From Labrys monachus (lineage in GTDB: Bacteria; Pseudomonadota; Alphaproteobacteria; Rhizobiales; Labraceae): DNA of 64,000 bases. Location of the stretch: contig NZ_JAUSVK010000001.1 of NCBI RefSeq assembly GCF_030814655.1, positions 2,189,501 through 2,253,500 of the forward strand, read 5' to 3'. Made by a program: the position numbers and the translations under genes. Every line of letters starts with the position of its first letter. The stretch's first letter is position 1. This document shows, in pieces, positions 24,870 to 45,951 of this stretch. Below the pieces are notes generated by a model that saw only the letters and a list, made by a program, of their open reading frames with translations, made no database searches and had not been told where the DNA came from.

Positions 24870-25395
24870 TTCTTCCCTGGGAGCGCGGACGTCTCGTCCG
24901 CTCTTGCCACCCCCAAGCGCAACGTTTCAACCTTCGAGCGTCGCGTTTCCAGAGCGGGCGAGACGCCCGCGGTCCCAGGATAGATGCCGACCCCCAAGTG
25001 CAACGTCTCAATCGGCTAGCGCGGCGTTTTCAGAGCGGGCGGGACGCCCATATGCGCTAACATAACAGAAATACCCGCCTTCTCCCGGTTCGGGAGAAGG
25101 TCCCGGTAGGGGGATGAGGGTCTAAACGTCAACGCAGATAGCTCAATAGTCGCGCTGGAATTGCACAAGTCCAGACCCTCATCCGGTGCTTCGCGCCACC
25201 CCCAGCATTTCCGCGGGAAATGCGAAGTCCCGCATGGGAGAAGGAAAATCGCGCTATTGTCGGCAAAGTTAGCGCATATGGGCGGGACGCCCGCGCTCCC
25301 GGGAGAGATGCCGACCCCCAAGCGCCACGTCTCAACCTTCGAGCGCAGCGTTTCCAGAGCGGACGGGACGTCCGCGCACCCGGGAGACGCGAGGT
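24870..25395. repeat. Interspersed intergenic repeat, three copies
   Basis: A unit of about 70 bases beginning CCCCCAAGYGCMACGTYTCAA and ending in an AGAGCGGGCGGGACGCCC-type GC palindrome occurs at about 24910-24980, 24991-25049 (shortened) and 25316-25388. Flanking GGGAGCGCGGACGTC-like stretches recur as well. It has the look of chromosomal REP/RIME-type mosaic repeats rather than coding DNA. Confidence 0.7.
25046..25283. repeat. 238-bp nested palindromic element (MITE/REP-like)
   Basis: Outer perfect 16-bp arms GCCCATATGCGCTAAC (25046-25061) and its complement (25268-25283) enclose inner arms CCTTCTCCC (25078-25086)/GGGAGAAGG (25236-25244). Inside these are GGATGAGGGTCT (25112-25123)/AGACCCTCATCC (25173-25184). 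The element is inserted between copies of the 70-base repeat and carries no gene. Confidence 0.75.
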
Positions 25396-25555: not shown

Positions 25556-25786
25556 TTGCGCCGCAGAAGCTGCTTTGCGTTGATATTAAAGGGAAATTTA
25601 AGGTTCGTTCGTGTGGATGTATGCCATACCTGTTACACAGTTGGCAAGCCTCGACTCAGTGCGGGGCGCTCGCGTAAGATGTCTACACGCGGCGTCAGCG
25701 CCTTGTGGAGATGACGACCTCCTTGCCGCTCCGGCTGCGATGTTCGTAACGGTGTGCCTCACCGAGCAGCGGGAGAACCGGACAAC

Positions 25787-26709
25787 GTGATCGAAACTCA
25801 GTTGGTTGACTTCTGCACCGGCGATTTTACCCCGGTCTCGGCTTTCAGCCCGGTGCAGATGGCTGTCATGCCTCTCTTCCACATGGACGGAGAGCGGAAG
25901 AGAGGCGTGGGAACGTGTTTTGCAATTACAAATCAGGGCCTTTGCCTGACAGTTCGGCATGTCGTAGAAGAGGCCTTTCCGCGAGCATTCGGCGAACGTC
26001 GAGACTTAACGGCAGAAGACGGAAACCTCTTCGCGCTTTATATCAAACCTCCTAAAGACCCGGGCCAATCGGACCTCGTGGGGGGGGGCTTCTCCCAGTT
26101 AAGCGCTCCATGTTCGCTGGCGATTTAGACATCGCGGCGGTGCAGCTTTGCCTCCCTATCGATCAGCGAAATGGGAAGCCGATACGGATGCCAGCAAACA
26201 AGCTCGGCCTCGGTCTACCTCGGGTCGGCGAGACATGCTTCGCTTTGGGCTACCATGCAATGACCTGGGGTGGAGATGAGCAACTCCATCAGGTCCATCA
26301 GAACTTCGCAGCATCGAGAGGTATTATTGAGGAATTACACGTACCGACGCGAGATCGCCACAGCTTGAACTTCCCGTGCTTTCGCACGTCGGCGCGGTAT
26401 GATGGCGGCATGAGCGGCGGTCCGGTGCTTGGCGAGGACGGATTAGTCAGGGGCGTCGTTTGCTCCTCGATGAAGCTGGACGGCGAGGAGACAGGCCACA
26501 TTTCTTATGCTTCTTTGATCGCCCCCGCGATGCTGTTGGTTGTCGAAGCGCGAGATGGGCACGGTGTTGTGGCCCAGCGCTTCCTTTGGGAATTCGTCGA
26601 GAGCGGGGCGATTGCGGCGGATACCGCTGGCATCGCCGGTGGAGTGTCTCGCGATACGTGCCGACTTGAGTGGGGTGGCGGTGAACTAGTTAATCGCTTG
26701 GGCACGTAG
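25787..26709 (+). pseudogene. Trypsin-like serine protease split by a frameshift at a G9 run
   Basis: Two consecutive frames together give a complete trypsin-fold protease. The first (from GTG 25787) has LTVRHVVE with the catalytic His. The second (from about 26089) has FAGDLDIAAVQL with the Asp and YDGGMSGGPVLGEDG with the Ser. They are out of register by one base at a run of nine G (26080-26088). Ten G would join them into about 300 residues reading on through GGGLLPVKRSM. It is the first gene after attL. Such stand-alone cytoplasmic trypsin-like proteins are often associated with defence or stress islands. It may be inactivated, phase-variable, or a sequencing error. Confidence 0.75.
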
Positions 26710-27603: not shown

Positions 27604-27644
27604 ACCCTGCCCGTGTGGACGTGTCCGCTTCCATCCTCAATCGC

Positions 27645-27708
27645 GTCCATTAGGATGGGGCTTGACATTCTGGACGGCCCGACTCATCATCCCTCGATCC
27701 TATTGGAC
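27645..27708. promoter_or_regulatory. Inverted repeat upstream of the resolvase (possible res/operator)
   Basis: GTCCATTAGGAT (27645-27656) and ATCCTATTGGAC (27697-27708) are complementary except for one base pair and lie 19-82 bases before the resolvase start. Resolvases commonly bind such paired sites for recombination and autoregulation. A GGGAGG ribosome site lies at 27713-27718. Confidence 0.5.
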
Positions 27709-27726
27709 ACTTGGGAGGTTGAGAAC

Positions 27727-28302
27727 ATGCTTATCGGCTACGCCAGGACATCGACCACGGAACAGGCGGCGGGGCTTGAGGCCCAGCAGCGGGACCTCAA
27801 AGCCATCGGATGCGAGAGGGTCTTTTCCGAACACGTCTCATCCGTCGCCAGCCGGGAGCAACTCGCGCAGGCCATTGCGTTCGCCCGGGAAGGGGACACG
27901 CTGGTTGTCACCAAGGTGGACCGTCTGGCCCGCTCTACGGTCGGCCTCTGGGACATCGTGAAGGAACTGGACGGCAAGGGCGTGGGCCTGCGGGTCCTCA
28001 ACCTCGGCGGCGAGACGGTGGACACCAAGAGCGCTACCGGCCGGCTCATCCTCAGCATCTTCGCAGGGTTCGCTCAGTTCGAGCGCGAGATGATGCTTGA
28101 GCGGCAGCGCGAGGGGATCGCCAAGGCCAAGGCGGAAGGGGTCTACAAGGGCCGCAAGCCCACCGCGCGGGCGAAGGCTGAGGATGTCCGGAAGATGCAT
28201 GCCGAGGGGAAGACCCCTACGGAGATCGCGAAGGCCTTGGGGATCGGCCGGGGGAGCGTCTACCGGGCTATCGAGGATGTGGCCGCATCATCGCAGGCCT
28301 GA
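27727..28302 (+). CDS. Serine recombinase, resolvase/invertase family
   Basis: A 191-residue small serine recombinase. The catalytic region MLIGYARTSTTEQAAGLEAQ has Arg7 and Ser9. VVTKVDRLARSTVGLWDIV carries the second Arg cluster, and LSIFAGFAQFEREMMLERQREGI is the E-helix. The C-terminal helix-turn-helix is KTPTEIAKALGIGRGSVYRAI. It cuts and rejoins DNA through a 5'-phosphoserine and probably resolves multimers of the element or inverts a segment. Length is normal and the gene looks intact. A paired inverted repeat directly upstream is a candidate binding site. Confidence 0.92.
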   Translation: MLIGYARTSTTEQAAGLEAQQRDLKAIGCERVFSEHVSSVASREQLAQAIAFAREGDTLVVTKVDRLARSTVGLWDIVKELDGKGVGLRVLNLGGETVDTKSATGRLILSIFAGFAQFEREMMLERQREGIAKAKAEGVYKGRKPTARAKAEDVRKMHAEGKTPTEIAKALGIGRGSVYRAIEDVAASSQA

Positions 28303-28878: not shown

Positions 28879-29595
28879 CTAATCCCCCGACACATGCGCC
28901 GCAGTGGGAAAGCGCTCGGCAATCACCTTGATAAGCCGGGCAGTCGCCGCGGCCAGTTCGCCCCGCGGCCACTCGATAGCCGTGGGCTCTAGGATCCGCG
29001 TCGTATGTTCGGCGAGGGACAAGACCTCATTGGCTATCTCACCAATGCTCTCGTACTCGGGCGGGTCAAGCGGGTCGGTAACGTGTAGCTGGTGGGCGAG
29101 ATACCGGTGGCGGATTTCCTGAAGGCGCCTGATGCGGCTGGGGCTTTCAGAAGCCAACCGATCTACGTTGCTGCGCAAGCGGGCTGCGGCTTCCAAAACG
29201 GCTTGTCCCTTCGCCCTTGCGGGCGCCGGTCCTGCGTTGTGCTTGGCGCGATCTACGAGCAGATCAAGAACGCCCGGCTCATCCAGCAGCTTGCGGACAA
29301 CCTGAAACGAAACCTTGTGAGTAGCGTGGACTGACCCGCGGAACCCTTCGAGCGATCGGACCAGCGTTAGGATAAGAGTGTCCATCGTCGCTCGCCACAT
29401 CACATCTATTGCCTTATGGACCGGCGAAGCCTTTACTGCGCGGCGGCGGGTAGTGTCCTCATTCAGCCCGTCCCAGACTTCGAATAACGCAAGGGCGCTA
29501 ACAGCTTCTCGGACGAGTCGTACTTTGTAGATGTCCAGTCTTTCGATGATTTCGGCCGGTTTTGGCTGCGGCGCTGGGGTCTTCGGCGTGGTCAT
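28879..29595 (-). CDS. HEPN/AbiU2-like protein
   Basis: A 238-residue mainly helical protein. The string IRHRYLAHQLH (around residue 165) fits the R-x4-6-H motif of HEPN ribonucleases. The start (ALALFEVWDGLNEDTTRR and MWRATMDTLILTLVRSLEG) resembles the AbiU2 HEPN group, which acts in abortive infection or as a toxin. No obvious antitoxin is adjacent on the same strand; the plus-strand gene at 29632 is divergent, 36 bases away. I infer a defence role for the element against competing phages, with moderate certainty. Confidence 0.6.
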   Translation of the reverse strand: MTTPKTPAPQPKPAEIIERLDIYKVRLVREAVSALALFEVWDGLNEDTTRRRAVKASPVHKAIDVMWRATMDTLILTLVRSLEGFRGSVHATHKVSFQVVRKLLDEPGVLDLLVDRAKHNAGPAPARAKGQAVLEAAARLRSNVDRLASESPSRIRRLQEIRHRYLAHQLHVTDPLDPPEYESIGEIANEVLSLAEHTTRILEPTAIEWPRGELAAATARLIKVIAERFPTAAHVSGD

Positions 29596-29631
29596 TGCCG
29601 CAAATCCTTACAGAGGGCTTCTTGGTAATTC

Positions 29632-30117
29632 ATGAGCAAATCGCGAACCCCGCCGAAAGACTGGCAGAAAGTAACCACCGCCGACGGGAGGCATACCGGA
29701 GAGTGGGAAGCCAGCGGCGGAATGCTTACAGTTCGTTATCAGGGGCGAACAAGGACGACGCATGAGATGTCGCGTGGCAGCAGCGAGGGGTTAGCGAGAC
29801 TAATCCTATCCGAGTTAGCCGCCGAGGGTGATGGGGCCTCGCGCCAAGCCAGCGGAGGCCACCTATTTAATGGCTGGCATTATCCGGACAGATACTCATC
29901 CAGGTTCGCCGGCAGGCTTCCCAGGGCTTCAAGAATCTCCCCGTCCTTGAAGTCCCCAAGCTCCGGGTCGCCCATCCGCGAGAACGCAACGCCACCCCTG
30001 CCGGCCCCCGCAAGCAGCCGAACCCGAGAGCGGGCAGAGTCGGCGCTGCGGGCCTCCACGGGGTCCAGCATGACGATGTCGCCCTCCTCATTCTGCTCAA
30101 AGGGCACGACGACATAG
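29632..30117 (+). CDS. Small hypothetical protein with run-on C-terminus
   Basis: The first 70 residues look real: VTTADGRHTGEWEASGGMLTVRYQGRTRTTHEMSRG then SEGLARLILSELAAEG. This matches a small beta-strand protein type common in Hyphomicrobiales that normally ends right after LARxLLxELA. Here the frame continues for another 90 Ser/Arg/Pro-rich residues, antisense to the gene at 29880-30134. The native end was probably near 29840 and has been lost, leaving a junk extension. Function unknown. Confidence 0.5.
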   Translation: MSKSRTPPKDWQKVTTADGRHTGEWEASGGMLTVRYQGRTRTTHEMSRGSSEGLARLILSELAAEGDGASRQASGGHLFNGWHYPDRYSSRFAGRLPRASRISPSLKSPSSGSPIRENATPPLPAPASSRTRERAESALRASTGSSMTMSPSSFCSKGTTT

Positions 30118-30134
30118 TACGTGATGTTTGCCAT
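29880..30134 (-). CDS. Small hypothetical protein
   Basis: An 84-residue acidic protein beginning MANITYYVVVPFEQNEEGDIVMLDPVEARSAD. It is followed by a loop with SRMGDPELGDFKDGEILEALG. Composition and codon use look genuine, unlike the antisense frame. The pattern of a short strand then an alpha-helical DSARSRVRLLAG suggests a compact alpha/beta fold. Its ATG follows a GGAGGATGG stretch on the minus strand. I do not recognise it. Confidence 0.6.
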   Translation of the reverse strand: MANITYYVVVPFEQNEEGDIVMLDPVEARSADSARSRVRLLAGAGRGGVAFSRMGDPELGDFKDGEILEALGSLPANLDEYLSG

Positions 30135-30273
30135 TGGGCCATCCTCCGGTCCCGAGGCGCCACCCCCGGCGGATCTTGCCGCAAACTACAGGCGAGAACA
30201 AGAAGAGAACAAAAGACTCGCCTTCACGGGCGACCCTAGGTAGCCTTCCGTATCCCGAGATGCGGAGGCCCTG

Positions 30274-30540
30274 ATGTCGAGACCCCTTTCCGAAAGCCTG
30301 CGCGGCGTTGACCTCTCGCAAGATGAGCTTGTGGCTGCCACAGAGCAGGCCATCGCGGACTGCGGCGGGGATGCTCGGGCCGCTGTTATGGCGCTCATCG
30401 TCCTCAATGGCAGCCTTGAGGCCGACCTCGCGGCGCTCACGGAGGAGGTCGCGGCTATCACGGTTAAGGTCTCGAAGGCCTACGCTCGGGACCTGTTCTA
30501 TGAGCGGTTGAGCCGGGCGGACAGGCGGAGCGAGGACTGA
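30274..30540 (+). CDS. Small hypothetical helical protein
   Basis: An 88-residue helical protein: LSQDELVAATEQAIADCGGDARAAVMALIVLNGSLEADLAALTEEV, ending in LFYERLSRADRR. Short helical proteins of this style occur widely in alphaproteobacterial genomes and plasmids without known function. The ATG at 30274 follows GCGGAGG. It stands alone between minus-strand genes. Confidence 0.6.
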   Translation: MSRPLSESLRGVDLSQDELVAATEQAIADCGGDARAAVMALIVLNGSLEADLAALTEEVAAITVKVSKAYARDLFYERLSRADRRSED

Positions 30541-30643
30541 GGGGCAATCGCTCCCGCTCGGGGGAGGGACCCGGGGCCGCGTCCGATACCGTGGAGTTGC
30601 CGCGGGCGGGTCCGGACGTTTGGACATGCAGCCGGCTTGGCTG

Positions 30644-30784
30644 TCATTCCTTGCGCGGCCGGCTGCCCCGCGTGGCCAGGATGATGAGAAGTGCGGCTAT
30701 GAAAGTCACAGCCACCACGCCAAGCAAGCCTGAGGCGGTAGCCTCGAAGATGCCTACAATGAGAATGTGAATTGTGGGGTCCAT
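30644..30784 (-). CDS. Small single-pass membrane protein, copy 2
   Basis: A 46-residue product: MDPTIHILIVGIFEATASG, then the helix LLGVVAVTFIAALLIILA and a short basic end RGSRPRKE. It is a paralogue of the 80-residue protein at 28431-28673 but lacks the Arg-rich tail. Both genes start right after a GGCGA-containing leader. Two copies in one element argue for a real, selected gene. Role unknown; a membrane anchor or holin-like protein is possible. Confidence 0.6.
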   Translation of the reverse strand: MDPTIHILIVGIFEATASGLLGVVAVTFIAALLIILATRGSRPRKE

Positions 30785-31099
30785 CTCGCCTCCGATCCTC
30801 TCACCCGGTGAAGCGGGGCGAGGGGGAATCGTATGGCATGGCGATGGTTATTTCCTAAACTCACTCGCGAAGCCGGCCATGTGTAAAGCGAGCCGTCGGC
30901 GCCGGGGGGACGGCGCTGCGCCTCACTAGAATAGTCCCCGAAAGCCCGCAGAGACTCACTGACGGCTACTCTCGCTGTCGAGGCCTGGATGTGCCTGCGG
31001 GCGAGAAGGGGCTTGTGGGCTCTGTGCGGTTGTGAGGAGGGTGGCGGTAGATGGCTTTGCCCGCGTTGCGCCCGACAGGTGCCCAACACGCCGTAGGAG

Positions 31100-31240
31100 T
31101 TATCCACAGGCGGCCTCCATTTGTCCTCTAAGTCATTGCAGCGCAGAAGGATTTGGCGCCGGACGGCCTGTGGATAAGTGAGGCAGGTAGATTATGGCCC
31201 ACCATTAGTATGTTTTAATTCCATCTATGGCCCACTTATG
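31100..31240. other. Candidate replication origin of the element
   Basis: Two perfect DnaA boxes face each other: TTATCCACA at 31100-31108 and TGTGGATAA at 31169-31177, within 12-bp arms TTATCCACAGGC/GCCTGTGGATAA. Directly right is AT-rich DNA with two identical 10-mers TATGGCCCAC at 31193-31202 and 31226-31235, 33 bases (about three helical turns) apart. A near copy TACGGCCCAC lies at 34115-34124, after the polymerase-like gene. The wider gap 30785-31380 has no convincing gene. Confidence 0.55.
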
Positions 31241-31380
31241 AAGCTTAAAAATCGCTATTGATCCCCACTGTTCATACCCATTCGAACAAATGTCCTCACT
31301 AGGGATATTCGGGTGTGATAATAAAATCGGAAGTATTTTTGCGTTTACTGTACTTGATGGGCTTGATTGTTCCCAAATAG

Positions 31381-31998
31381 GTGCCCATACCTACACCCCA
31401 ACAGGGGGAGGTACCCCTTGCTGTCGCCAAGGGGGCACCGTTGGACAACACCATAGTAGTGGGGATGGCAGGCAGTGCAGAACAGCCGAATGCCAAGTTC
31501 TCGCCTAAGGTCTTTATCGCGTGGCAGGTACAGCCGGCAGACGCTACGGCCCTCCCCACGATCAATGAGTACACCCAGGACGGTGGCTATACGCTATACC
31601 TCGCCTGTCTCCACTTCCTCACTGCCCTCATTGGGGACAGCCCAGCCGGCGCCGTGGTGCACATCGTGGTTCCTATGGCGCCCATAGCCGAAATGTTCTC
31701 GTTAGGACGCCTTGAAGATGCCGCCAAGGAGGGCTTCCGGTCCAAGCCGGACACCCATCGCGATGAGTGCCGGGTGCTGTGGGAACTGATGCAGTCGAAG
31801 GGCATCAGGGTGACGGCGGAGGTCCCGGAGCCGGGAAGCGAAGGCGCTGCACTACTGAAGCGGCTCCGCTCGGCTGCCAGCCGTAGGCGCCGCGGTGTCC
31901 GTGAGCCCACCCTTGAAGACCTGAAGCTGCGGGAAAACCCGTGGGCCAAGGTGGACACTGACAAACTACGCCGTGATGCCGTGGATAAGGAGCCGTGA
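31381..31998 (+). CDS. Element replication operon protein 1, possible RNase H-like fold
   Basis: A product of up to 205 residues. The order of a strand (NTIVVGMAGSA), a helix region (YTLYLACLHFLTALIGD), a strand (AVVHIVVPMAPIAEMFSL), a Lys/Asp helix (HRDECRVLWELMQSKG) and a strand (IRVTAEVPEPGSEG) recalls the RNase H fold. The match is weak and catalytic residues are not certain. The C-terminus is basic (AASRRRRGVREP). The GTG at 31381 has no clear ribosome site; a TTG at 31441 with GGGGG upstream is a good alternative. Its stop overlaps the next start by one base (TGATG), so it is the first gene of the polymerase operon. Confidence 0.5.
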   Translation: MPIPTPQQGEVPLAVAKGAPLDNTIVVGMAGSAEQPNAKFSPKVFIAWQVQPADATALPTINEYTQDGGYTLYLACLHFLTALIGDSPAGAVVHIVVPMAPIAEMFSLGRLEDAAKEGFRSKPDTHRDECRVLWELMQSKGIRVTAEVPEPGSEGAALLKRLRSAASRRRRGVREPTLEDLKLRENPWAKVDTDKLRRDAVDKEP

Positions 31999-32756
31999 TG
32001 GCCAAGAGTCATCAGAAGTGGCTTGGGGACCGGGCGAGGGTCAAGGCTCTCGTCGCGAAGCGGGCCGAAGGCGCAGCGGCCTGCTGCACTGTCTGGGGAT
32101 GCAAGCGGCTCCCGCAGGCGGCGGCGAGGAAGGGGCTATCGACCTTCATCTGCCGCTACCATGCCCAGTACCACAATCGTCACGGCAGCTACTACAAGGG
32201 CACCTACAGGGCCGCCGAGTTGCTTCCCTACAAGCGGGCCGCCCTGCGGTACATCCGGGACCACAAGGCCGACAAGGGGCTCCTTGCGGCCAAGAGCGCA
32301 CTGGACGGCATCATGCAGCGGGCCGGGCCTGTGCAGCGTATGAGCGACATCATGGTCATGCCGGCGGCGGACAAGGCGCGGGCTGCACTGGCGCGTATGC
32401 GGGATGCCGGGGTCCCAGCCGATAGGCTCCTCTTGGTCTACCTCACCGTTTGCGCCACCATCACGGATGACTCTGTAGGCCCAGGCGGTGACCGCGAGGT
32501 ATTCCGGCAGACCCAGATAGGCAAGGCGGCCCATCGGCTCGCCTCGGGGTACCACACGGACTACGGCTATGAGCGGTACCCCAGGTCTGCGGGGCTGGCC
32601 ATTCGGCACCTCGGACAAATGATCGAGAAGGCGTGCGAGTGGGTCGGGGCGGGCTGCGTAGCGGCCGTAGTGGTCATGGCGGAGACCTCGCGGGAAGGGC
32701 CTAGGGCGGCCTCTAAGCCCCGCCAGGCAGCACAAGGGGCAACCCGTGGACGATAG
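31998..32756 (+). CDS. Element replication operon protein 2, putative zinc-binding
   Basis: A 252-residue product. Near the N-terminus CCTVWGCKRLPQ then FICRYHAQYHNRHG provides Cys and His pairs that could hold a zinc ion. The following helix-rich part has basic stretches (YKRAALRYIRDHKADKG). The C-terminal third, with KAAHRLASGYHTDYGYERYPRS and a helix AIRHLGQMIEKACEW, looks like a separate helical domain. No family is recognised. Translation is coupled at both ends: its ATG overlaps the previous stop, and the next gene starts 11 bases before its own stop. This suggests a dedicated partner (primase, loader or initiator) of the polymerase-like protein, which is inference. Confidence 0.55.
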   Translation: MAKSHQKWLGDRARVKALVAKRAEGAAACCTVWGCKRLPQAAARKGLSTFICRYHAQYHNRHGSYYKGTYRAAELLPYKRAALRYIRDHKADKGLLAAKSALDGIMQRAGPVQRMSDIMVMPAADKARAALARMRDAGVPADRLLLVYLTVCATITDDSVGPGGDREVFRQTQIGKAAHRLASGYHTDYGYERYPRSAGLAIRHLGQMIEKACEWVGAGCVAAVVVMAETSREGPRAASKPRQAAQGATRGR

Positions 32757-34113
32757 CGAGAGCAAACCCGTGAGCGGCCTAGGGGGCCGAGGCGAGGACG
32801 CAAAGGTAGAGCGGCAGCGCCTGATGTTTGACCCGTGGTTGGTAACAAGCTCCGACAGTGTTGACGGGGTCATATCGAACCTCCGTGCCACTTACGGAAT
32901 GCGTTACCCGTCGCAACGGAAGCGGAAACAAAAGGCCCGCGATGCCGCGAGCTTCGAACGTATCTTTCGGGCAATTTACGTTAATCTTGCCTATGCCGCC
33001 GCTCTCGGGGCCAGTCCGCCCGCAGTGGCTATCAGCCTGCGGTCTTACAGGCAAAAGCACACACGATATGACGCGCAAGGGCTGAGTAGTCTTCCGCAAG
33101 TCGTAGAGCAGTTGGCAAGCACCGGCCTATATCTCGTAGTGCGGCGATCAACCCAACGGCAGATAGCGAGTACGATCGAAACCCGGGTTACCGCTTTCAA
33201 GTGGGAGACGAAAAAGGGGTCATTCACCGCCCTGCCCGAGCACTTCGGAAGGGTGGAGGGTCGCGAACTCATCCGTCTTAGCAGAAGCATTCGGCACCGG
33301 TATGAGGAGGCGGAAGAGGACCAAAGCGACCACGATAGGGAAGGGAAACTGGTCGATTACACCGAAGATACCGAGAGTAGCCGTCGATATCGAGCAGAGC
33401 TATTGCGGATCAATCGCCATCTCGCCGGAGCCCAACTTGGTCTAGAAGCGGACCTCCCAGCCCGCATGGGGGTCTTTGCCCAGCGAGAGCTTTGCAGGTA
33501 CTTCAAGCTTCCGGAAGGCGAAGACAAGCCGCGCTTTGACCTTTGCGGCCGGCTGTTCGGTGGGTGGTGGCAAGAACTGCCATCGTCGCAGCGGCACCAT
33601 ATCCGCATTGACGGTGAGCCCATCGCGGACCTTGATTTCCGCAGTATGTTTCTTCGCCTGGCCTACCTCCGAGCTGGGCTTCCATCCCCAGCGGCTGGAG
33701 ATCTCTATGCAGGCGTGTGGCGCGGCACCAAATTCCGGGACGGTCTCAAGAAGGTCGTTAACGCGATGCTCTTCCGGACCACGCCACTCACCAAGTTCCC
33801 GAGAGGCGCCAAGCAGCTTTTCCCACGTGGGGCATCGGCCAGCGAGGTCCGCGAGGCCATTCTCGCCGCACATCATTCGGTCGCCCACATGTTTGAGGCC
33901 GGCGTCGGGTTGAGCCTCATGTTCACAGAAAGCGAGATTATGGTGGCGACGCTACTTCGCCTTGTCGATCAGGGCGTTACGGCGCTGCCGATGCATGACG
34001 GCTTAATGGTCGCAGCATCGAAGGCCGCCACGGCGCGAAAGGCAATGGAGGAAGCGGCGCGGGACTTTACCGGCTTCCGCCTGCCGACCACCACAAAACT
34101 ATATCGGCGCTAG
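32746..34113 (+). CDS. Divergent family A (PolA-like) DNA polymerase, exonuclease-free
   Basis: The 455-residue protein shows three spaced motifs of the family A palm and fingers. Motif A: DLDFRSMFLRLAY, with Asp297, Arg304 and Phe302 where PolI has the steric-gate Glu of DYSQIELR. Motif B: FRDGLKKVVNAMLF, with Arg331, Lys336 and Asn339 like the O-helix RxxxKxxN. Motif C: LPMHDGLMV, with His417-Asp418 like VHDE. Order and spacing (about 35 and 80 residues) are compressed but correct. There is no 3'-5' exonuclease domain. The first 250 residues are basic and helical, with RINRHLAGAQ, and may be a winged-helix initiator region. Start GTG 32746 overlaps gene 2. It could prime, copy or initiate the element. 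Function is inferred from motifs only. Confidence 0.55.
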   Translation: MDDSESKPVSGLGGRGEDAKVERQRLMFDPWLVTSSDSVDGVISNLRATYGMRYPSQRKRKQKARDAASFERIFRAIYVNLAYAAALGASPPAVAISLRSYRQKHTRYDAQGLSSLPQVVEQLASTGLYLVVRRSTQRQIASTIETRVTAFKWETKKGSFTALPEHFGRVEGRELIRLSRSIRHRYEEAEEDQSDHDREGKLVDYTEDTESSRRYRAELLRINRHLAGAQLGLEADLPARMGVFAQRELCRYFKLPEGEDKPRFDLCGRLFGGWWQELPSSQRHHIRIDGEPIADLDFRSMFLRLAYLRAGLPSPAAGDLYAGVWRGTKFRDGLKKVVNAMLFRTTPLTKFPRGAKQLFPRGASASEVREAILAAHHSVAHMFEAGVGLSLMFTESEIMVATLLRLVDQGVTALPMHDGLMVAASKAATARKAMEEAARDFTGFRLPTTTKLYRR

Positions 34114-34540
34114 TTACGGCCCACATAAAGGCTACTAGCTCCTCCTCTCCTCCCAGTGTCACCAAACAGGAAACCCGGATGAAGAGATAAACCCGCACTC
34201 CTCAATCACACATCGCCGGACCACAGTGAGCGCCTAGCTTCCCCAAGCTTAGAGTGCGCCATCGGGCCTCTTTGCGCTGCACCTCAAAGTGCACCCCGGC
34301 ATCTCCACGTCTCCCGGTCAGTTCTCCGGACAATTCCTCACGTCTTCAAGGACCCTCTCATGACCTAGCTTACTAGACCACTCATCCATCAACTACCAGA
34401 AGACCCCCCAAGGTATGCCCCAAGACGCCACGGCATGTCAACGGCGCCCTGTGTCTTCTTCTTCGATACTTCCCCGAGGTCCGCAAGGTCACCTCAGGCC
34501 ATCCCTACCACCCCATCCCCTCAACCGCAAGGCTCACCCC
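34114..34540. other. 427-base leader before the giant polyvalent gene
   Basis: No convincing gene. It starts with TACGGCCCAC (34115-34124), a near copy of the 10-mers in the candidate origin, followed by pyrimidine-rich DNA. It probably holds the promoter of the large downstream gene. In-frame codons upstream of 34541 are low-quality. Confidence 0.45.
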
Positions 34541-39877: not shown

Positions 39878-40882
39878 ATGTCTTACCGCCGAACAGATGC
39901 AGCAGCCTATCTACGCCCCTTGACGGATGAGGCTGTGGCCAACGCTCTCGACCCACCCGAAGCCGGCGCGGCAGGCCCAACGGCTCGCACTAGCGCGGCC
40001 TTAGCGCAGCCCGGCAAGACCCTCCTCACGGACGCCTTGGAACACGTCATTCGCAAGCACTGGTCCGGCGCCCGGTCCGAGGAGACCATGGCGTCCCAAG
40101 GCTTGGGGGCCATCAAGGGCTTGCACAGCCTCGGGGTCTACCATGTGGACGACGTGACCCCGGACAAGATACGTGAGGCCGTGCGGGCCTGGCTTGCAGA
40201 GGGGTATTCCGCGAGTACCGTCCGCAAGCGCCTCACGGCGATCAGCTTCATGGGGGCGCCCGTTGAGGGCTGCCTGCCGAAGCTCCCCAAGCCTCTGCAA
40301 TGGTGGCTCAATCCATCGTACCGCGCCAAGGCTGTCGCCCACTTGCGGGACACCGCGACGATGGCGCCCCATGGCGACGCTCGGCTTGTCCTCGCGGACT
40401 ATATCGAGTGGGTCTGCGTGACTGGTCTCCGCGTGGAGGAGTCCCTGCGGCTCCGCTGGCGAGACATCACATTCTGCCCCAGGGACCCCCGCCTGCCCGA
40501 GGATATGTATGTGCTCATCCCAGGCACGAAGACCGTAGCCTCACAGGCCACCCTTCCACTCTCGCGGGAGGCTGGGGAGATCCTTCTGAGGCGCCGCAAT
40601 GCCGATCCGGCAGCCGGCCCGGCCGGCCTCGTGTTCCCCGCGAAATACCGCGTGCTGTCCACCCTGTGGAACGAGTGCAGGGGTGTCCTCGGCGTCTCTG
40701 ATGTCCCCACGGCGACCCTGAAGTCCTTCCGCAGAACGGCGGCGAGGTACCTGCACGTGGAGCGCAACATGCCGCTGGACGTCACCCGGCAGTACCTCAG
40801 GCATAGCTCTGTGCATACCACCACGGGGTACTTGCGGCTGGTCGGCGGGTACAGCGCGGAGGAGATGAAGCGGTGGCTTTGA
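39878..40882 (+). CDS. Tyrosine recombinase (second integrase of the element)
   Basis: The 334-residue product has an N-terminal SAM-like core-binding part (about 50-160) and a C-terminal catalytic domain. Catalytic marks are CVTGLRVEESLRLRW (first Arg), PGTKTVASQATLPLS (Lys on the beta-hairpin), LKSFRRTAARYLH, LRHSSVHTTTGYLRL (His and nucleophilic Tyr). In the third motif the usual HxxR reads K-S-F-R, so the His is replaced. Start ATG 39878 has GGGAGGGA upstream. It may resolve dimers or mediate another recombination step, since the recombinase at 44129-45778 sits at the att site. The interrupted small gene overlaps its stop. Confidence 0.85.
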   Translation: MSYRRTDAAAYLRPLTDEAVANALDPPEAGAAGPTARTSAALAQPGKTLLTDALEHVIRKHWSGARSEETMASQGLGAIKGLHSLGVYHVDDVTPDKIREAVRAWLAEGYSASTVRKRLTAISFMGAPVEGCLPKLPKPLQWWLNPSYRAKAVAHLRDTATMAPHGDARLVLADYIEWVCVTGLRVEESLRLRWRDITFCPRDPRLPEDMYVLIPGTKTVASQATLPLSREAGEILLRRRNADPAAGPAGLVFPAKYRVLSTLWNECRGVLGVSDVPTATLKSFRRTAARYLHVERNMPLDVTRQYLRHSSVHTTTGYLRLVGGYSAEEMKRWL

Positions 40883-41026: not shown

Positions 41027-42398
41027 CAGGCTGCGGAAAAACGTGTTGCGTGGCCGCATATTTTGGCTGAGGGCCTGATTTTTTGGGCTCGGTTTGATTT
41101 TGGCGGCCGATTTTCATGCAATGACCGCTGCCAAAACAGCATTTTGGATGCGTTTTCCGACATTTTGGCGCAGTTATCCTTTGATTTCGATCAATTTGGG
41201 CAATCGGATCAGATTGCAGGCCGCCGCCGTCAGCGTGAAGGACCAACCGACGCGTTCAGTGCCTCGATGGCGGGTCTTGCTCAGTCCGCCACAGGTCTTG
41301 ATCCAGCCGAACCCTTCCTCGATCCGCTTGCGGATGCGCTGGCTGAGAGCGTAGCCGGCATGCCGGGTGGTGCGCCCGTCAATGGCGGAACGCCGGTTGG
41401 TGGTGTTCTGCGCCACATGCGGGGTGACCTTGATACTGCGCAGATCCGCCACAAAGCCAGCCACGTCATAGGCCTTGTCGGCAGCGACCGTGATGCGATG
41501 ACGGGCGTTGCGGCGCCTGAGCATGCTCAGGGCCGCTTCCCGCTCGGCAGTGCCGGTCGCAAGCGTCAGTTCGGTGTCGACGATCAGGCCGTGGCGGTTC
41601 TCCATGAGGAAGTGCCCCATATGGCACAGCCTGGCCGCGGCGCCGCGGCCCTTCTTGTAGAGCCGGGCATCCGGATCGCTGGTCGAGGCATGGGTCCGGT
41701 TGCTGCGCTTCTCGCCATGGAAATCGCGCTCGGCGTTCCGTCCGCCGGCGGGCTTGCCTTCCGGAGCCGCACCGGAAGCCGGCGGGACGCTGCCCGAACC
41801 GCCATCATCGCCCTTATCCGGGCTGTCGGCCCTATCGGCCTTGGGTTTGAAGCCCTTGATGCTCGCCCAGGCCTCGATCAGGGTGCCGTCCACCGAAAAA
41901 TGATCCTCCGACAGCAAAGCCGTCACCCGCGGCTGGGACAGCAGCGCAGCCAGGAACTTGGCGGCGATATCGCCTTCCTGCAGGCGCTCGCGGTTCTTGG
42001 TGAACACCGTCACATCCCAGATCGGCGCATCCATCGACAGCCCGGCAAACCAGCGGAACATCAGATTGTAATCCATCTGTTCCATCAGTTGCCGCTCCGA
42101 GCGGATCGTGAAGAAGGCCTGCAGCAACAGCGCACGCAGCAGCTTCTCCGGCGGGATCGAAGGACGCCCATGCCGCGAATACAGCTTGTCGAACTCCGGC
42201 GACAGCGCCTCCAGCGCCTCGTCGACAATCGCACGGATCGCACGCAGCGGATGATCCGCAGGAACCCGAGCTTCGCAGCTCACATACGAGAACAGACTCT
42301 CCGTCCGAACATCCGCTCCGCGCATCGATCCCCTCCCGTTCATGCACCAGCAGTGAATCACCATGGAACGCTTCGAGGAAGACTTTTTCCGCAGCCTG
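41027..42398. mobile_element. IS5-like insertion sequence, 1372 bp, CTAG target duplication
   Basis: Perfect 15-bp terminal inverted repeats CAGGCTGCGGAAAAA (41027-41041) and TTTTTCCGCAGCCTG (42384-42398) flank one transposase gene. CTAG occurs directly outside both ends (41023-41026 and 42399-42402) as the target duplication. The element lies inside the integrative island and breaks a small gene. Its intact ends and transposase suggest recent insertion. Confidence 0.88.
41174..42325 (-). CDS. IS5-like DDE transposase
   Basis: A 383-residue transposase of the common IS5-like type. It has LFSYVSCEARVPADHPLRAIRAIVDEALE at the start, then GRPSIPPEKLLRALLLQAFFTIRSERQLMEQMDYNLMFRWFAGLSMD. The catalytic core includes FSVDGTLIEAWAS (first Asp), VAADKAYDVAGFV (second Asp) and RKRIEEGFGWIK (Glu). 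A Gly/Ser/Pro-rich insert with EKRSNRTHASTSDPDA lies mid-protein, as usual in this group. The ATG at 42325 is inside the left repeat margin. The gene looks intact. Confidence 0.92.
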   Translation of the reverse strand: MRGADVRTESLFSYVSCEARVPADHPLRAIRAIVDEALEALSPEFDKLYSRHGRPSIPPEKLLRALLLQAFFTIRSERQLMEQMDYNLMFRWFAGLSMDAPIWDVTVFTKNRERLQEGDIAAKFLAALLSQPRVTALLSEDHFSVDGTLIEAWASIKGFKPKADRADSPDKGDDGGSGSVPPASGAAPEGKPAGGRNAERDFHGEKRSNRTHASTSDPDARLYKKGRGAAARLCHMGHFLMENRHGLIVDTELTLATGTAEREAALSMLRRRNARHRITVAADKAYDVAGFVADLRSIKVTPHVAQNTTNRRSAIDGRTTRHAGYALSQRIRKRIEEGFGWIKTCGGLSKTRHRGTERVGWSFTLTAAACNLIRLPKLIEIKG

Positions 42399-42615
42399 CT
42401 AGACCCGGAACGCGCCCACTTCCTCACGAGAGACGAGTTGAAGGACCTCAAGCGAAAGGTCGACAGGGCGTACCTGTTGGCCAGCGTCTAGCCTCTCCCG
42501 ACTTCCCCCTACCACCAGCCAGACCGAACCCGGGCGCCCTCCGCGCTCCGGGAGGCGAGGCCGTGTGTCCGCGCCGAACCCCACGATGATCACCAAAACG
42601 AAAGGACCGAACCCC

Positions 42616-43737: not shown

Positions 43738-44136
43738 TCACTTCGGCCCTGTGACGGCGCCGATACGGTGGCTCACCATCCTCCCGTCCTCGCCCACTAA
43801 ATGAACGTCCGTTTCGTCGGGGTCTGGCGGATAGTGTGAGGGGGTCCACCCTGCGCCTGCCATCGTGGCCGCAATGTGCTCGCTCACCTGTGCGTAGGGA
43901 CCGCTGCAATACCAATCCATGTGGGTTCCTCGCCCCCTGATCGAGGCAATCAGGCTGCCAGCGTCGCGGAAAGTGTATGCTGCCTCCGTCCCGTCGCTAT
44001 GGGTCCAAATGATATTGGCGAGAGCGGACCACATCGCCTGCGCATTGTCGTCGGACTCGCATATCCATGCCCCGAGGGCCGCCGCAAGGGCGACTTCAAA
44101 GGCGCTTTCGGGAACGAAGTTAGGCTGATCACTCAT
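43738..44136 (-). CDS. Hypothetical protein coupled to the integrase
   Basis: A 132-residue acidic protein: FEVALAAALGAWICESDDNAQAMWSALANIIWTHSDGTEAAYTFRDAGSLIASIRGRG then MDWYCSGP and AATMAGAGWTPSHYPPD. Its ATG overlaps the last 8 bases of the integrase gene (ATGAGTGA), so it is co-translated with it. This position suits a recombination directionality factor or integrase partner, but the sequence is not basic and not like known Xis proteins. Unknown family. Confidence 0.6.
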   Translation of the reverse strand: MSDQPNFVPESAFEVALAAALGAWICESDDNAQAMWSALANIIWTHSDGTEAAYTFRDAGSLIASIRGRGTHMDWYCSGPYAQVSEHIAATMAGAGWTPSHYPPDPDETDVHLVGEDGRMVSHRIGAVTGPK

Positions 44137-45778
44137 CAATGTTGAACCTCGGGAACCTCTCAAAGGCCCTCACCTGCGCCGCGATGCTCACCTCACCATA
44201 GGACCCGCCCACGGTTCCCGCAGCGTGCCCGCAGATGCCATCCAACACGCTATCCTCAATGCCGGCCTCGCGGCCCACGGTCTTGAAGAGGTGGCGCCAT
44301 CCGTGGTTCGGGGCGACCTCGGGGTCCTTCACGATCTGCCGGGCGAACTCCGCGAGGCGGTTCTTGGTGGCCTGCCAGACCCCGCGAATGTCGCCCTCCG
44401 CCTTTGGCGCCACGAACAGATAGCCGGGCTTGGAGCCGCCAACAAAGGCGGGGAACCCGAGGTCCACGAGGTGCGGGTGTAGGACGACTTGGCGGACCTC
44501 TTTGTCCTTCACCGTCCCGGCCTCGGGGGTAATGGTGATGACCCAATTCCCTCCGACCTGGCGGACGTCCTCTTTGCGAAGTTGCACCAGTTCGCCCACG
44601 CGGGCACCTGTGTAGGCGCAGAGCCACGGGACCCACCGCTTAGCCGCGAAGAGCTTGGGGCTTTCCCTTCCCCTCACGTGCTCCGCAGCCTGCTTCAGGA
44701 TCGCCTTGGCTTCGGCATCGGTGAACCCCTTGGACCGTGTGCGGGTGGCCTTTGCGCGGGTCACCTTGACGCCTTCGGTTGGATCCGAGGTAAGCTTTCG
44801 GTTCGCCACGGCCCACTTGAAGATGGACCGAAGGCCGGCGATGTCGCTGTCACCCACCGTCTTGGGGCTGACCCCTTGGGCAAGGCGATGGTCCTTGAAA
44901 GCGATGATGTCATGGACGGTGAGGGCCGCAGCGTCGTCGTGCTTCAGGAAGTCCGCGAGGCGGCCCACGGTGTTGCGATAGCTCTCATAGGTGCTGATGG
45001 TCCGGCCCGCCGCCTTGGCCTCTGTCCACCACGACTCAACAAGCCCTTTGAGGGAGACCTTGGGGGCCGGGCTCGCGGTGGCCCGCCCGGGCTCCTCCCA
45101 CTTGGGATACCGCGCGGCCTTGGGGTCCGGCGAATAGTCGCCATCGGCGTTACGCTTGCGGCTCGCGAAGCCATCGCGGAGCGCCTCCCAGAAGACGCGA
45201 AGCAGAATGGCCCTCGTCTCTGGCGTGACAGAGGGGATGCCCCTGGCGAGCAGCCGGCGGCTAACGAGCGGGCCAACATGTGGCTCAAGGTCCGCGGGCT
45301 CTGTGCTGGCGCCAAGGGCTTCCCAGCGCTCTACAACAGCAACCCAGGCGGCGCGTGTCTCTTCGAGCGTGGGCGGCGTGTCCAGGGTCCACTTGCCGTC
45401 AAACCCAATGGTCCCCGAGACAGTCCGCTCGTTGTCCTCGCCGGCAGCCCAAGAGAGATAGAGGTCGTGAGATAGAGCGGTTGCCTGCTTGAGCGTAAGG
45501 GAGACCGGGGCGTTCTCGCGGAGGCTCCGCCAGATGGCTTCGAGGTACGCCGCGATTTCCGCTTGGCGGACCTTGGCCTCGCTTGGATTGGTGGTCCGCA
45601 GAGACAGCCGGATGAAGGGGGTCTTTTCCGTGATGGTGAGCGGCACGATGGTGCCAGCCAGCGGGATGGCCAGCTTGAGGCCGACCACACGGGCCTTCAG
45701 GTCGGCCGGAATTCGCTGGATGAAGTAGGGGACACGGGAGCCGCTACGACGCACGGGCCGAACCACGCGATAGAGCAT
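44129..45778 (-). CDS. Tyrosine recombinase / integrase of the island
   Basis: A 549-residue integrase, longer than most. The N-terminal part (MLYRVVRPVRRSGSRVPYFIQRIPADLK) resembles the DUF6538-type head of alphaproteobacterial integrases. A core-binding domain (about 250-340) has VSLKGLVESWWTEAKAAGRTISTYESYRNTVGRLADFL. The catalytic domain has CAYTGARVGELVQLR (Arg), KDKEVRQVVLHP (Lys), PNHGWRHLFKT (HxxR), ICGHAAGTVGGSYGEV (His and Tyr). All key residues are present. It is 88 bases from the tRNA-Leu 3' end and reads away from it. It should integrate and excise the element at attB in tRNA-Leu(CAG). Confidence 0.93.
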   Translation of the reverse strand: MLYRVVRPVRRSGSRVPYFIQRIPADLKARVVGLKLAIPLAGTIVPLTITEKTPFIRLSLRTTNPSEAKVRQAEIAAYLEAIWRSLRENAPVSLTLKQATALSHDLYLSWAAGEDNERTVSGTIGFDGKWTLDTPPTLEETRAAWVAVVERWEALGASTEPADLEPHVGPLVSRRLLARGIPSVTPETRAILLRVFWEALRDGFASRKRNADGDYSPDPKAARYPKWEEPGRATASPAPKVSLKGLVESWWTEAKAAGRTISTYESYRNTVGRLADFLKHDDAAALTVHDIIAFKDHRLAQGVSPKTVGDSDIAGLRSIFKWAVANRKLTSDPTEGVKVTRAKATRTRSKGFTDAEAKAILKQAAEHVRGRESPKLFAAKRWVPWLCAYTGARVGELVQLRKEDVRQVGGNWVITITPEAGTVKDKEVRQVVLHPHLVDLGFPAFVGGSKPGYLFVAPKAEGDIRGVWQATKNRLAEFARQIVKDPEVAPNHGWRHLFKTVGREAGIEDSVLDGICGHAAGTVGGSYGEVSIAAQVRAFERFPRFNIDE

Positions 45779-45866: not shown

Positions 45867-45883
45867 TGGTGCCCAGAAGAGGA
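45867..45883. repeat. attR: 17-bp repeat within tRNA-Leu 3' end
   Basis: TGGTGCCCAGAAGAGGA, identical to 25539-25555. On this side it forms the functional tRNA 3' end, so the element restores the gene on integration. Confidence 0.85.
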
Positions 45884-45951
45884 CTCGAACCTCCACCTCT
45901 TGCAAGACTGGTACCTGAAACCAGCGCGTCTACCAATTCCGCCATCTGGGC
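45867..45951 (-). tRNA. tRNA-Leu (anticodon CAG)
   Basis: 85 bases on the minus strand, with encoded CCA. Acceptor arms GCCCAG.../CTGGGC pair. The anticodon stem CTGGT/ACCAG encloses loop TTCAGGT with CAG at positions 34-36, which reads CUG codons. The long variable arm (CTTGCAAG type) and the T-arm GAGG-TTCGAGT-CCTC are typical of tRNA-Leu. The 3' end is the attR of the mobile element. Confidence 0.95.

Follow-up and report, generated by a model that had tools for sequence, protein, structure and literature searches.

A divergent family A-like polymerase in an integrative element of Labrys monachus, placed by homology in the divPolA2 family and encoded with a predicted zinc-site partner and a putative RNase H-like protein

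TV-Pols, as described by Iyer, Abhiman and Aravind in 2008 (PMC2579912), are proteins of 400-600 amino acids (aa) from mobile elements, including alphaproteobacterial ones, for which primase and polymerase activity was predicted; the supplement of that paper also names the TV-PolN and C3RHD domains. The divPolA2 proteins were first found in barbaviruses, occur also in other Caudoviricetes and were proposed to act in repair or as RNA polymerases (Yutin et al. 2024, PMC11348598). Enzymes like DNA polymerase I (Pol I) that have been shown to start chains are few, and the case described is the CcPol-MP pair of SCCmec, in which an A-family polymerase and a small partner act as a primase (Rice 2023, PMC10061031). 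In phage N4, finally, the gp15 and gp16 subunits of RNAPII correspond to non-overlapping parts of T7 RNA polymerase (PMC4496689). Here we analyse a window of 64,000 nucleotides (nt) of the Labrys monachus genome (contig NZ_JAUSVK010000001.1, positions 2,189,501 to 2,253,500), in which the last gene of a three-gene operon (Table 1) encodes a divergent polymerase that we compare with these systems.

A first-pass annotation of the window had described this protein as a family A-like polymerase of a mobile element, divergent and without an exonuclease, and this description is borne out by a confident structural model, by invariant catalytic residues and by structural matches, all reported below. 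The operon is coupled as had been claimed, the first and second genes overlapping by 4 nt and the second and third by 11 nt, and the three motifs lie where they were placed, A around D297, B at residues 330-343 and C at 414-422. It was also suggested that standard annotation would call the product hypothetical: scans with Pfam and NCBIfam (E up to 1) were indeed blank, as was a search of PDB sequences (E up to 10), and a profile of 22 sequences (the window polymerase and 21 relatives) matched no PDB chain, but the polymerase kind itself is already described in print under two names (divPolA2 in 2024, TV-Pol in 2008). In PHROGs the window polymerase matches phrog_4756, a family of unknown function (E 4e-19), which is matched by all 86 members of our main alignment, A4. 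This alignment contains 85 loci plus the window and was taken from 92 loci (L028-L119), from which L030, L042, L060, L066, L078, L084 and L088 were dropped as cut, short or near copies.

The AlphaFold2 model computed from the 86-row alignment has a predicted local distance difference test score (pLDDT) of 88.3 and a predicted template modelling score (pTM) of 0.89, with residues 1-23 under a pLDDT of 50. Compared with known polymerases, as the first-pass annotation had proposed, the model presents the palm and fingers of family A and single-subunit RNA polymerases. The rows listed by Foldseek against the PDB (the best 50 of 564) are all family A DNA polymerases, with a best E of 2.6e-5 and 35 rows at E up to 0.001. 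In the VIA comparison (50 rows listed; 226-255 residues aligned, root mean square deviation, rmsd, 3.2-4.5) the Z values were 14.2 for the apicoplast DNA polymerase, 13.7 for the yeast mitochondrial RNA polymerase, 13.5 for T7 DNA polymerase and 13.0 for T7 RNA polymerase. Since rows within one unit of Z count as ties, the modelled fold is about as close to family A DNA polymerases as to single-subunit RNA polymerases and cannot separate them. The structural alignments cover both D297 and D418; those to RNA polymerases start mostly at residues 165-172 and cover residues 276-883 of T7 RNA polymerase (Z 12.8-13.0). A few VIA rows start near residue 30, and because the aligned count does not grow in these rows the N-terminal domain of the modelled protein is taken as essentially unmatched. 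In the comparison with viral models, the top 11 rows show proteins of 400-450 aa that align along most of their length; one of them, from Rheinheimera phage Barba31A, carries the name DNA polymerase. Between the N-terminal domain and the palm, where a TV-Pol would have a thumb of two antiparallel helices, helix 210-228 is the sole long helix of the model. A winged helix, whose order of helices and strands looked similar by eye, was considered for the N-terminal domain and the name was not adopted: Pfam searches with 85 N-terminal pieces gave scattered matches, with one or two members per family among the 25 listed of 45 families, and a PDB profile search gave nothing better than E 0.64.

A profile-profile comparison, also proposed in the first-pass annotation, gave weak links. 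The window protein has no match to PF00476 (E up to 1), and this family is absent from the 15 matched by the 22 members of an earlier alignment, A1; hhalign links the polymerase weakly to Pol I (P 0.004) and to T7 RNA polymerase (probability 2.3, P 0.021, 47 columns around motif C), where the best unrelated control had P 0.051 and Pol I and T7 RNA polymerase were themselves unlinked (P 0.28). Judged from its model, the protein is thus of the family A fold but does not reach the sequence cut-off of PF00476, whose sole match in the host genome is the cell's PolA, encoded elsewhere. As claimed, no 3'-5' exonuclease domain was detected by Pfam, either in the window protein or among the 15 families of A1.

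The catalytic set is complete. In all 86 sequences of A4, R251, G268, R269, D297, Y321, R331, K335, H417 and D418 are invariant, and D319 is kept in 84; the palm and fingers region holds a DX2GR-like D265..G268-R269, motif A (D297), D319/Y321, motif B (R331xxxK335) and motif C (H417-D418), with hairpin strands at 249-255 and 267-272 in the model. This invariance, together with the fold of the model, indicates that the likeness of the motifs is not due to chance, and the conservation of both catalytic aspartates, of the R and K of motif B and of HD throughout a diverse set points to catalysis having been kept.

Sugar selection is less uniform. Glutamate is retained in DNA polymerases at the fifth position after the motif A aspartate and after HD, and we take the former position to be Glu in Pol I and Gly in T7 RNA polymerase. 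The first-pass annotation had noted Phe at this steric gate, which by sequence is true of the window protein (F302), but the family varies: F 27, G 16, A 13, N 7, H 4, Y 4, M 4, S 3, T 3, Q 2, L 2, C 1, and Glu never. The residue after HD is A in 39, G in 31, S in 10 and C in 6 sequences, again never Glu, while the host's PolA has HDE, T7 RNA polymerase HDS and N4 HDC. Since Glu is missing from both positions in every member, unlike in DNA polymerases, the use of ribonucleotides would be possible. In the motif B column, which we presume to be that of the Pol I/T7 tyrosine, we counted F 51, S 14, N 11 and others 10. From these three sets of counts, the family seems to share a catalytic core and yet mostly to lack the sugar-selection residues of both Pol I and T7 RNA polymerase.

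Concerning family placement, the A4 profile was run against phage proteins with Z set to 1e6 and found six of seven (E 2e-22 to 7e-35): the published divPolA2 representative AUR84708 (E 2.4e-22), Barba19A (4.3e-26), ORF100 of phage ICP1 (2e-28) and proteins of Vibrio phage PS17B-2, Aeromonas phage 2L372D and Klebsiella phage (FBKp34_077); FBKp34_079, a near neighbour of the last, was not matched. Among 37 control sequences of Pol I and T7-like enzymes, a few of them read in the wrong frame, one appeared, at E 21. By sequence homology, then, the window polymerase is to be placed in the divPolA2 family, with which it shares an active palm, an N-terminal globular domain of unknown kind, the absence of an exonuclease and a resemblance to Pol I as well as to mitochondrial RNA polymerase, as these are described for divPolA2 (PMC11348598). 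The setting is different: divPolA2 is a gene of Caudoviricetes phages lying beside a regular DNA polymerase, whereas here we have bacterial integrative elements, a co-operonic partner, an RNase H-like gene and a chromosomal island with an integrase, the only PF00476 match being the distant cellular PolA. This mismatch restricts the use of the name divPolA2 but leaves the homology intact. A literature search for the name returned only the preprint and the paper of one work, and a 2026 survey of bacterial DNA polymerases (PMC12926913), in the part available to us, lists PolA1-3 without mention of the polymerase family of the window gene.

The features of TV-Pols are also present. In the description of Iyer et al. 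(PMC2579912) these proteins have a hairpin arginine, two aspartates in the palm and fingers with a conserved Asp and RxxxK; in our alignment the corresponding R251, R269, D297, D418, R331 and K335 occur in 86 of 86 sequences and D319 in 84. Their elements carry a gamma-delta-type resolvase and a lambda-type integrase, and a stand-alone all-helical protein adjoins the polymerase (PMC2579912). A search with the A1 profile of the record of Microcystis phage Ma-LMM01, named as having a TV-Pol, gave no match, the positive control being absent. Residues and neighbourhood fit TV-Pol well, and the suggestion of the first-pass annotation that the protein is a replicase, primase-polymerase or initiator agrees with the proposal made for TV-Pols in 2008, where the activity is a predicted one (PMC2579912). 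The TV-PolN and C3RHD domains of its supplement may already describe the partner protein of our operon; a combined literature search that included the partner returned nothing relevant, no search by the partner's name having been made.

The distribution of the polymerase was evaluated in several samples. As a single query the window protein found it in 16 of 289 genomes of the class, the window's own included, and profile searches found it in 24 of 398 genomes of a phylum sample and 17 of 199 of an order sample. A scan of genome contigs confirmed 164 relatives, from which the best 80 by likeness to the window protein were taken as loci, so that counts of loci are biased. Two scans of viral contigs listed 13 relatives (12 distinct loci), and the window protein alone matched nothing there; the plasmid collection held three records with relatives, and the phage collection 10 records with the window protein as query and 280 and 242 with two other relatives. 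It should be added that L035 and L042 are apparently one locus.

What is new in this system is a bacterial clade, together with a linked partner that has a putative zinc site and an RNase H-like first gene. The partner, encoded by the second gene, is modelled as all-helical (pLDDT 90.8, pTM 0.85) with a predicted zinc site of spacing C31-X4-C36-X16-C53-X2-H56; in 49 sequences (alignment A5, 48 loci plus the window; L024, L042 and two loci found later, L034 and L041, lie outside it) C31, C36 and G64 are invariant and C53 and H56 are kept in at least 90%. It adjoins the polymerase in 53 of 96 loci on the same strand, either upstream, often with a 4-nt overlap, or downstream. In the order sample, 17 genomes have the polymerase, 19 the partner and 11 both, against 1.6 expected (Fisher p 2e-9), and in all 11 the two matches lie 44-811 bp apart on one strand. 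In a quick tree, all 51 partner-bearing rows fall inside one supported set of 82 rows, in which none of the six phage-record rows is included. With the window partner as tblastn query the phage collection gave no match, another member matched one plasmid there, and three of the 49 members match phrog_144 (best E 5e-4), which would read the partner as an HNH protein. The arrangement of an A-family polymerase with a small partner in an integrative element with a serine recombinase recalls CcPol-MP and the PolA-SSB primases of SCC-type elements; however, the partner of CcPol is an OB fold with a helicase adjoining, and CcPol is close to housekeeping Pol I (PMC10061031), which the window polymerase is not. 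The model of our partner has no strands of three or more residues, and an OB fold was consequently not found.

The product of the first gene of the window operon matches neither the RNase HI profile nor Pfam (E up to 1). Its homolog in L035 (40% identity, E 3e-44) matches the RNase HI profile with 21.4 bits (E 7.7e-6), and by this homology the window protein seems to have an RNase H-like fold in which, by eye, at least two catalytic acids are gone. Intact RNase HI genes overlap the start of the polymerase in L037 and L065 (PF00075 E 7e-34 and 1.5e-36) and lie 0.1 kb (L097) and 1 kb (L057) downstream, or 2.2 kb away on the other strand (L108); these five in 96 loci compare with an expectation of about 0.44, under the assumption that RNase HI makes up one gene in 4000 (p 9e-5). 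L110 has a short RNase HI-like open reading frame (ORF) nearby (E 2e-10), and diverged RNase HI is the first gene in L050 (E 6e-11; two aligned catalytic positions are Ala and Arg), L035/L042 (8e-6) and L049 (8e-4). The RNase HI profile gives more than 8 bits for 6 of 26 genes upstream of the polymerase (5 distinct), whereas the other 20, including that of the window, do not reach this score. For control genes of like size the figure is 0 of 416, serine recombinases, partners, polymerases and the RNase HI cluster having been left out beforehand, or 3 of 419 when three RNase HI genes are put back. A linkage of RNase H genes to this kind of polymerase is a new point, because TV-Pols are stated to have no linkage to nuclease domains, although RNaseH-fold transposases are listed among their neighbours (PMC2579912).

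We lean, with moderate confidence, towards the polymerase being the catalytic subunit of a multi-protein priming and replication enzyme of the integrative element, of the divPolA2/TV-Pol kind. The partner would bind DNA through its predicted zinc site and position the single-stranded template, and the two proteins could then begin chains in a primer-independent way, on the model of CcPol-MP of SCCmec and its OB-fold partner (PMC10061031). The RNase H-like protein might bind the RNA part or, in relatives with an intact RNase HI, remove the RNA, and the host replicase would extend the chains, whether RNA or short DNA, copying the element after its excision.

Several observations weigh against this proposal. 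The hhalign links to Pol I and to T7 RNA polymerase are bare ones. The recurrent neighbour clusters, few of which were scanned against Pfam, include no evident replicative helicase, and this also distinguishes our loci from those of TV-Pols. The candidate origin claimed beside the operon was not found: positions 29600-34500, searched for repeats and composition, hold six two-copy direct repeats and five imperfect inverted pairs but no array and no origin-like repeats, and a single stretch, 31000-31499, is AT-richer (GC 0.524) than its surroundings (0.58-0.67). Because the partner profile derives from genes adjacent to polymerases, it favours the finding of pairs. In the class sample, only the window's own genome (two copies) among the 16 with the polymerase has a clear partner, two others having marginal matches, which indicates a restriction of the partner to a single clade. 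Nor is the pairing obligatory: in the order sample, no polymerase was detected in 8 of the 19 genomes with the partner, and the partner is missing from 6 of the 17 with the polymerase. Among the partner-alone loci (7 of 8 inspected), a helicase-like gene (DEAD/ResIII) lies downstream in L198 and L201 and an RNase HI lies near the partner in L198 and L203, so that the partner may serve other replication modules. Finally, the RNase H-like protein of the window itself seems, from its sequence, to be inactive.

A different assignment, which we regard as doubtful, is that of a split single-subunit RNA polymerase like N4 RNAPII, with the partner as the N-terminal, promoter-side half and the polymerase as the catalytic half, transcribing genes of the element such as the one for the 1626 aa protein. 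In each of its five top VIA rows the partner is aligned with the N-terminal domain of T7 RNA polymerase (Z 6.4-7.7, residues between 58 and 279; the next row has Z 4.4), so that with the 276-883 covered by the polymerase the two proteins would tile T7 RNA polymerase with an overlap of at most four residues, in parallel with N4, where two nearby genes (269 and 404 aa) cover separate parts of it (PMC4496689). The HD followed by A, G, S or C in every sequence, as in T7 and N4, and the DX2GR-like acidic residue ahead of the invariant GR in 56 of 86 (D 39, E 17) would agree with this. However, the five rows are one protein, with rmsd 4.2 in two and 9.8-10.5 in three, and for an all-helical protein a Z of 7 may reflect a mere common arrangement, as the tool itself notes. 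Foldseek gave no significant match for the partner, T7 RNA polymerase not being among the 50 rows listed, and when the partner profile was set against T7 RNA polymerase or N4 RNAP1 the probability was 0.1. The N4 subunits are by contrast T7-like by sequence (hhalign 97.9, for RNAP1, and 99.7), and in N4 the DX2GR lies on the small subunit, while its counterpart here is on the catalytic protein. Gly at D+5 occurs in just 16 of 86, and the partner is found also without the polymerase. For these reasons of helical content, rmsd, repetition of one protein and unlinked profiles, the modelled likeness of the partner to the T7 domain is kept as a weak lead only.

An aromatic gate is used by reverse transcriptases and family B enzymes, and F or Y at D+5 in 31 of 86 sequences would suit a gap-filling or repair DNA polymerase of the element or a phage, selecting deoxynucleotides, a role in line with the repair proposed for divPolA2 (PMC11348598). 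We consider it unlikely, as the recurrent neighbours are recombinases and integrases, an exonuclease domain is not seen and D+5 is small or polar in many relatives. That the protein is a degenerate, non-catalytic fold serving as a DNA-binding initiator or regulator, as motif B without what we take to be the F/Y...YG of Pol I, the N-terminal part unmatched to a known thumb and the seemingly inactive RNase H of gene 1 might suggest, is very improbable given both aspartates, the motif B R and K and the HD identical in all 86 sequences.

Table 1. Coordinates of the operon and of other features of the element in the window
Feature	Position	Strand	Remarks
Operon gene 1, RNase H-like fold protein by homology	31381..31998	+	205 aa
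Operon gene 2 (partner), all-helical model, predicted CX4C...CX2H zinc site (C31, C36, C53, H56)	31995..32756	+	253 aa
Polymerase catalytic protein	32746..34113	+	GTG start, 455 aa
Polymerase N-terminal domain, residues 1-172	32746..33261	+	no known sequence relatives
Polymerase palm/fingers region, residues about 173-455	33262..34110	+	structural alignments, column counts
Serine recombinase (resolvase/invertase), recurrent neighbour	27613..28302	+	PF00239 E 3.9e-39
Phage internal-virion/'polyvalent'-type protein, 1626 aa, with ADP-ribosyltransferase-like segment	34415..39295	+	phrog_6651 E 1.4e-41
Tyrosine integrase	39878..40882	+	PF00589 E 2.4e-10, over cut-off

The integrative element to which the window polymerase belongs also encodes a serine recombinase and a tyrosine integrase and carries one gene derived from a phage. 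BLAST clusters of the serine recombinase and of the tyrosine integrase occur in 62 and 66 of 97 loci, respectively, and HsdM- and HsdR-like clusters, named by eye, are also among the neighbours; the cluster of the phage internal-virion-type protein is present in seven loci, L035/L042 being counted twice, and the window member has in addition matches below the cut-off to DUF3990 (E 7e-7) and ART-PolyVal (E 0.008). A decayed second copy exists in the host genome (L204, C1:2669002-2673461), with polymerase pieces at 2669002-2669299, the partner at 2672805-2673461 and a serine recombinase. None of the three families of direct repeats of 20 nt or more found between 19000 and 47000 looks like flanking attachment (att) sites. 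A tyrosine recombinase-like ORF (44129-45778, minus strand), part of which clusters with integrases, adjoins a tRNA-Leu gene (45867-45951, minus strand), which is a possible insertion site of the island, located at about 24-46 kb. A presumed transposase-like ORF (41174-42451, minus strand) closely follows the integrase on its downstream side. Other observations concern 28879-29595 (minus strand), encoding a HEPN_AbiU2 family protein (PF18734, 27.5 bits against a cut-off of 26.8) as possible defence cargo, 25754-26709, a trypsin-like peptidase divided between two frames that overlap (the second half is over the cut-off with PF13365, E 5e-8, and the first below it, E 0.07), and 24875-25373, where a GC-rich repeat of 94 nt occurs three times, two copies being 65% and 85% identical to the third.

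We consider the finding to be real and interesting, and the surrounding operon to be the part worth testing. It ties together two names of the literature, divPolA2 by homology and TV-Pol by features, and it places the hypothetical protein ORF100 of cholera phage ICP1 (L151:7578-9245) in the same polymerase family. The partner with its predicted zinc site and the RNase H-like protein make the guessed job of the polymerase, starting DNA or RNA chains for the element, a testable one. A bolder and rather unlikely version would combine the catalytic half, a zinc-binding half that is the counterpart of the T7 N-terminal domain and an RNase H-like protein handling the RNA-DNA hybrid into a previously undescribed three-part chain-starting machine, a split RNA polymerase that primes replication of an integrative element; if true, it would be a living intermediate between Pol I and T7 RNA polymerase. 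As it stands, this bacterial clade, with a partner different from that of CcPol and an RNase H-like companion, would offer a small and concrete system in which the gain or loss of primer-free initiation by Pol I-like and T7-like polymerases may be followed.

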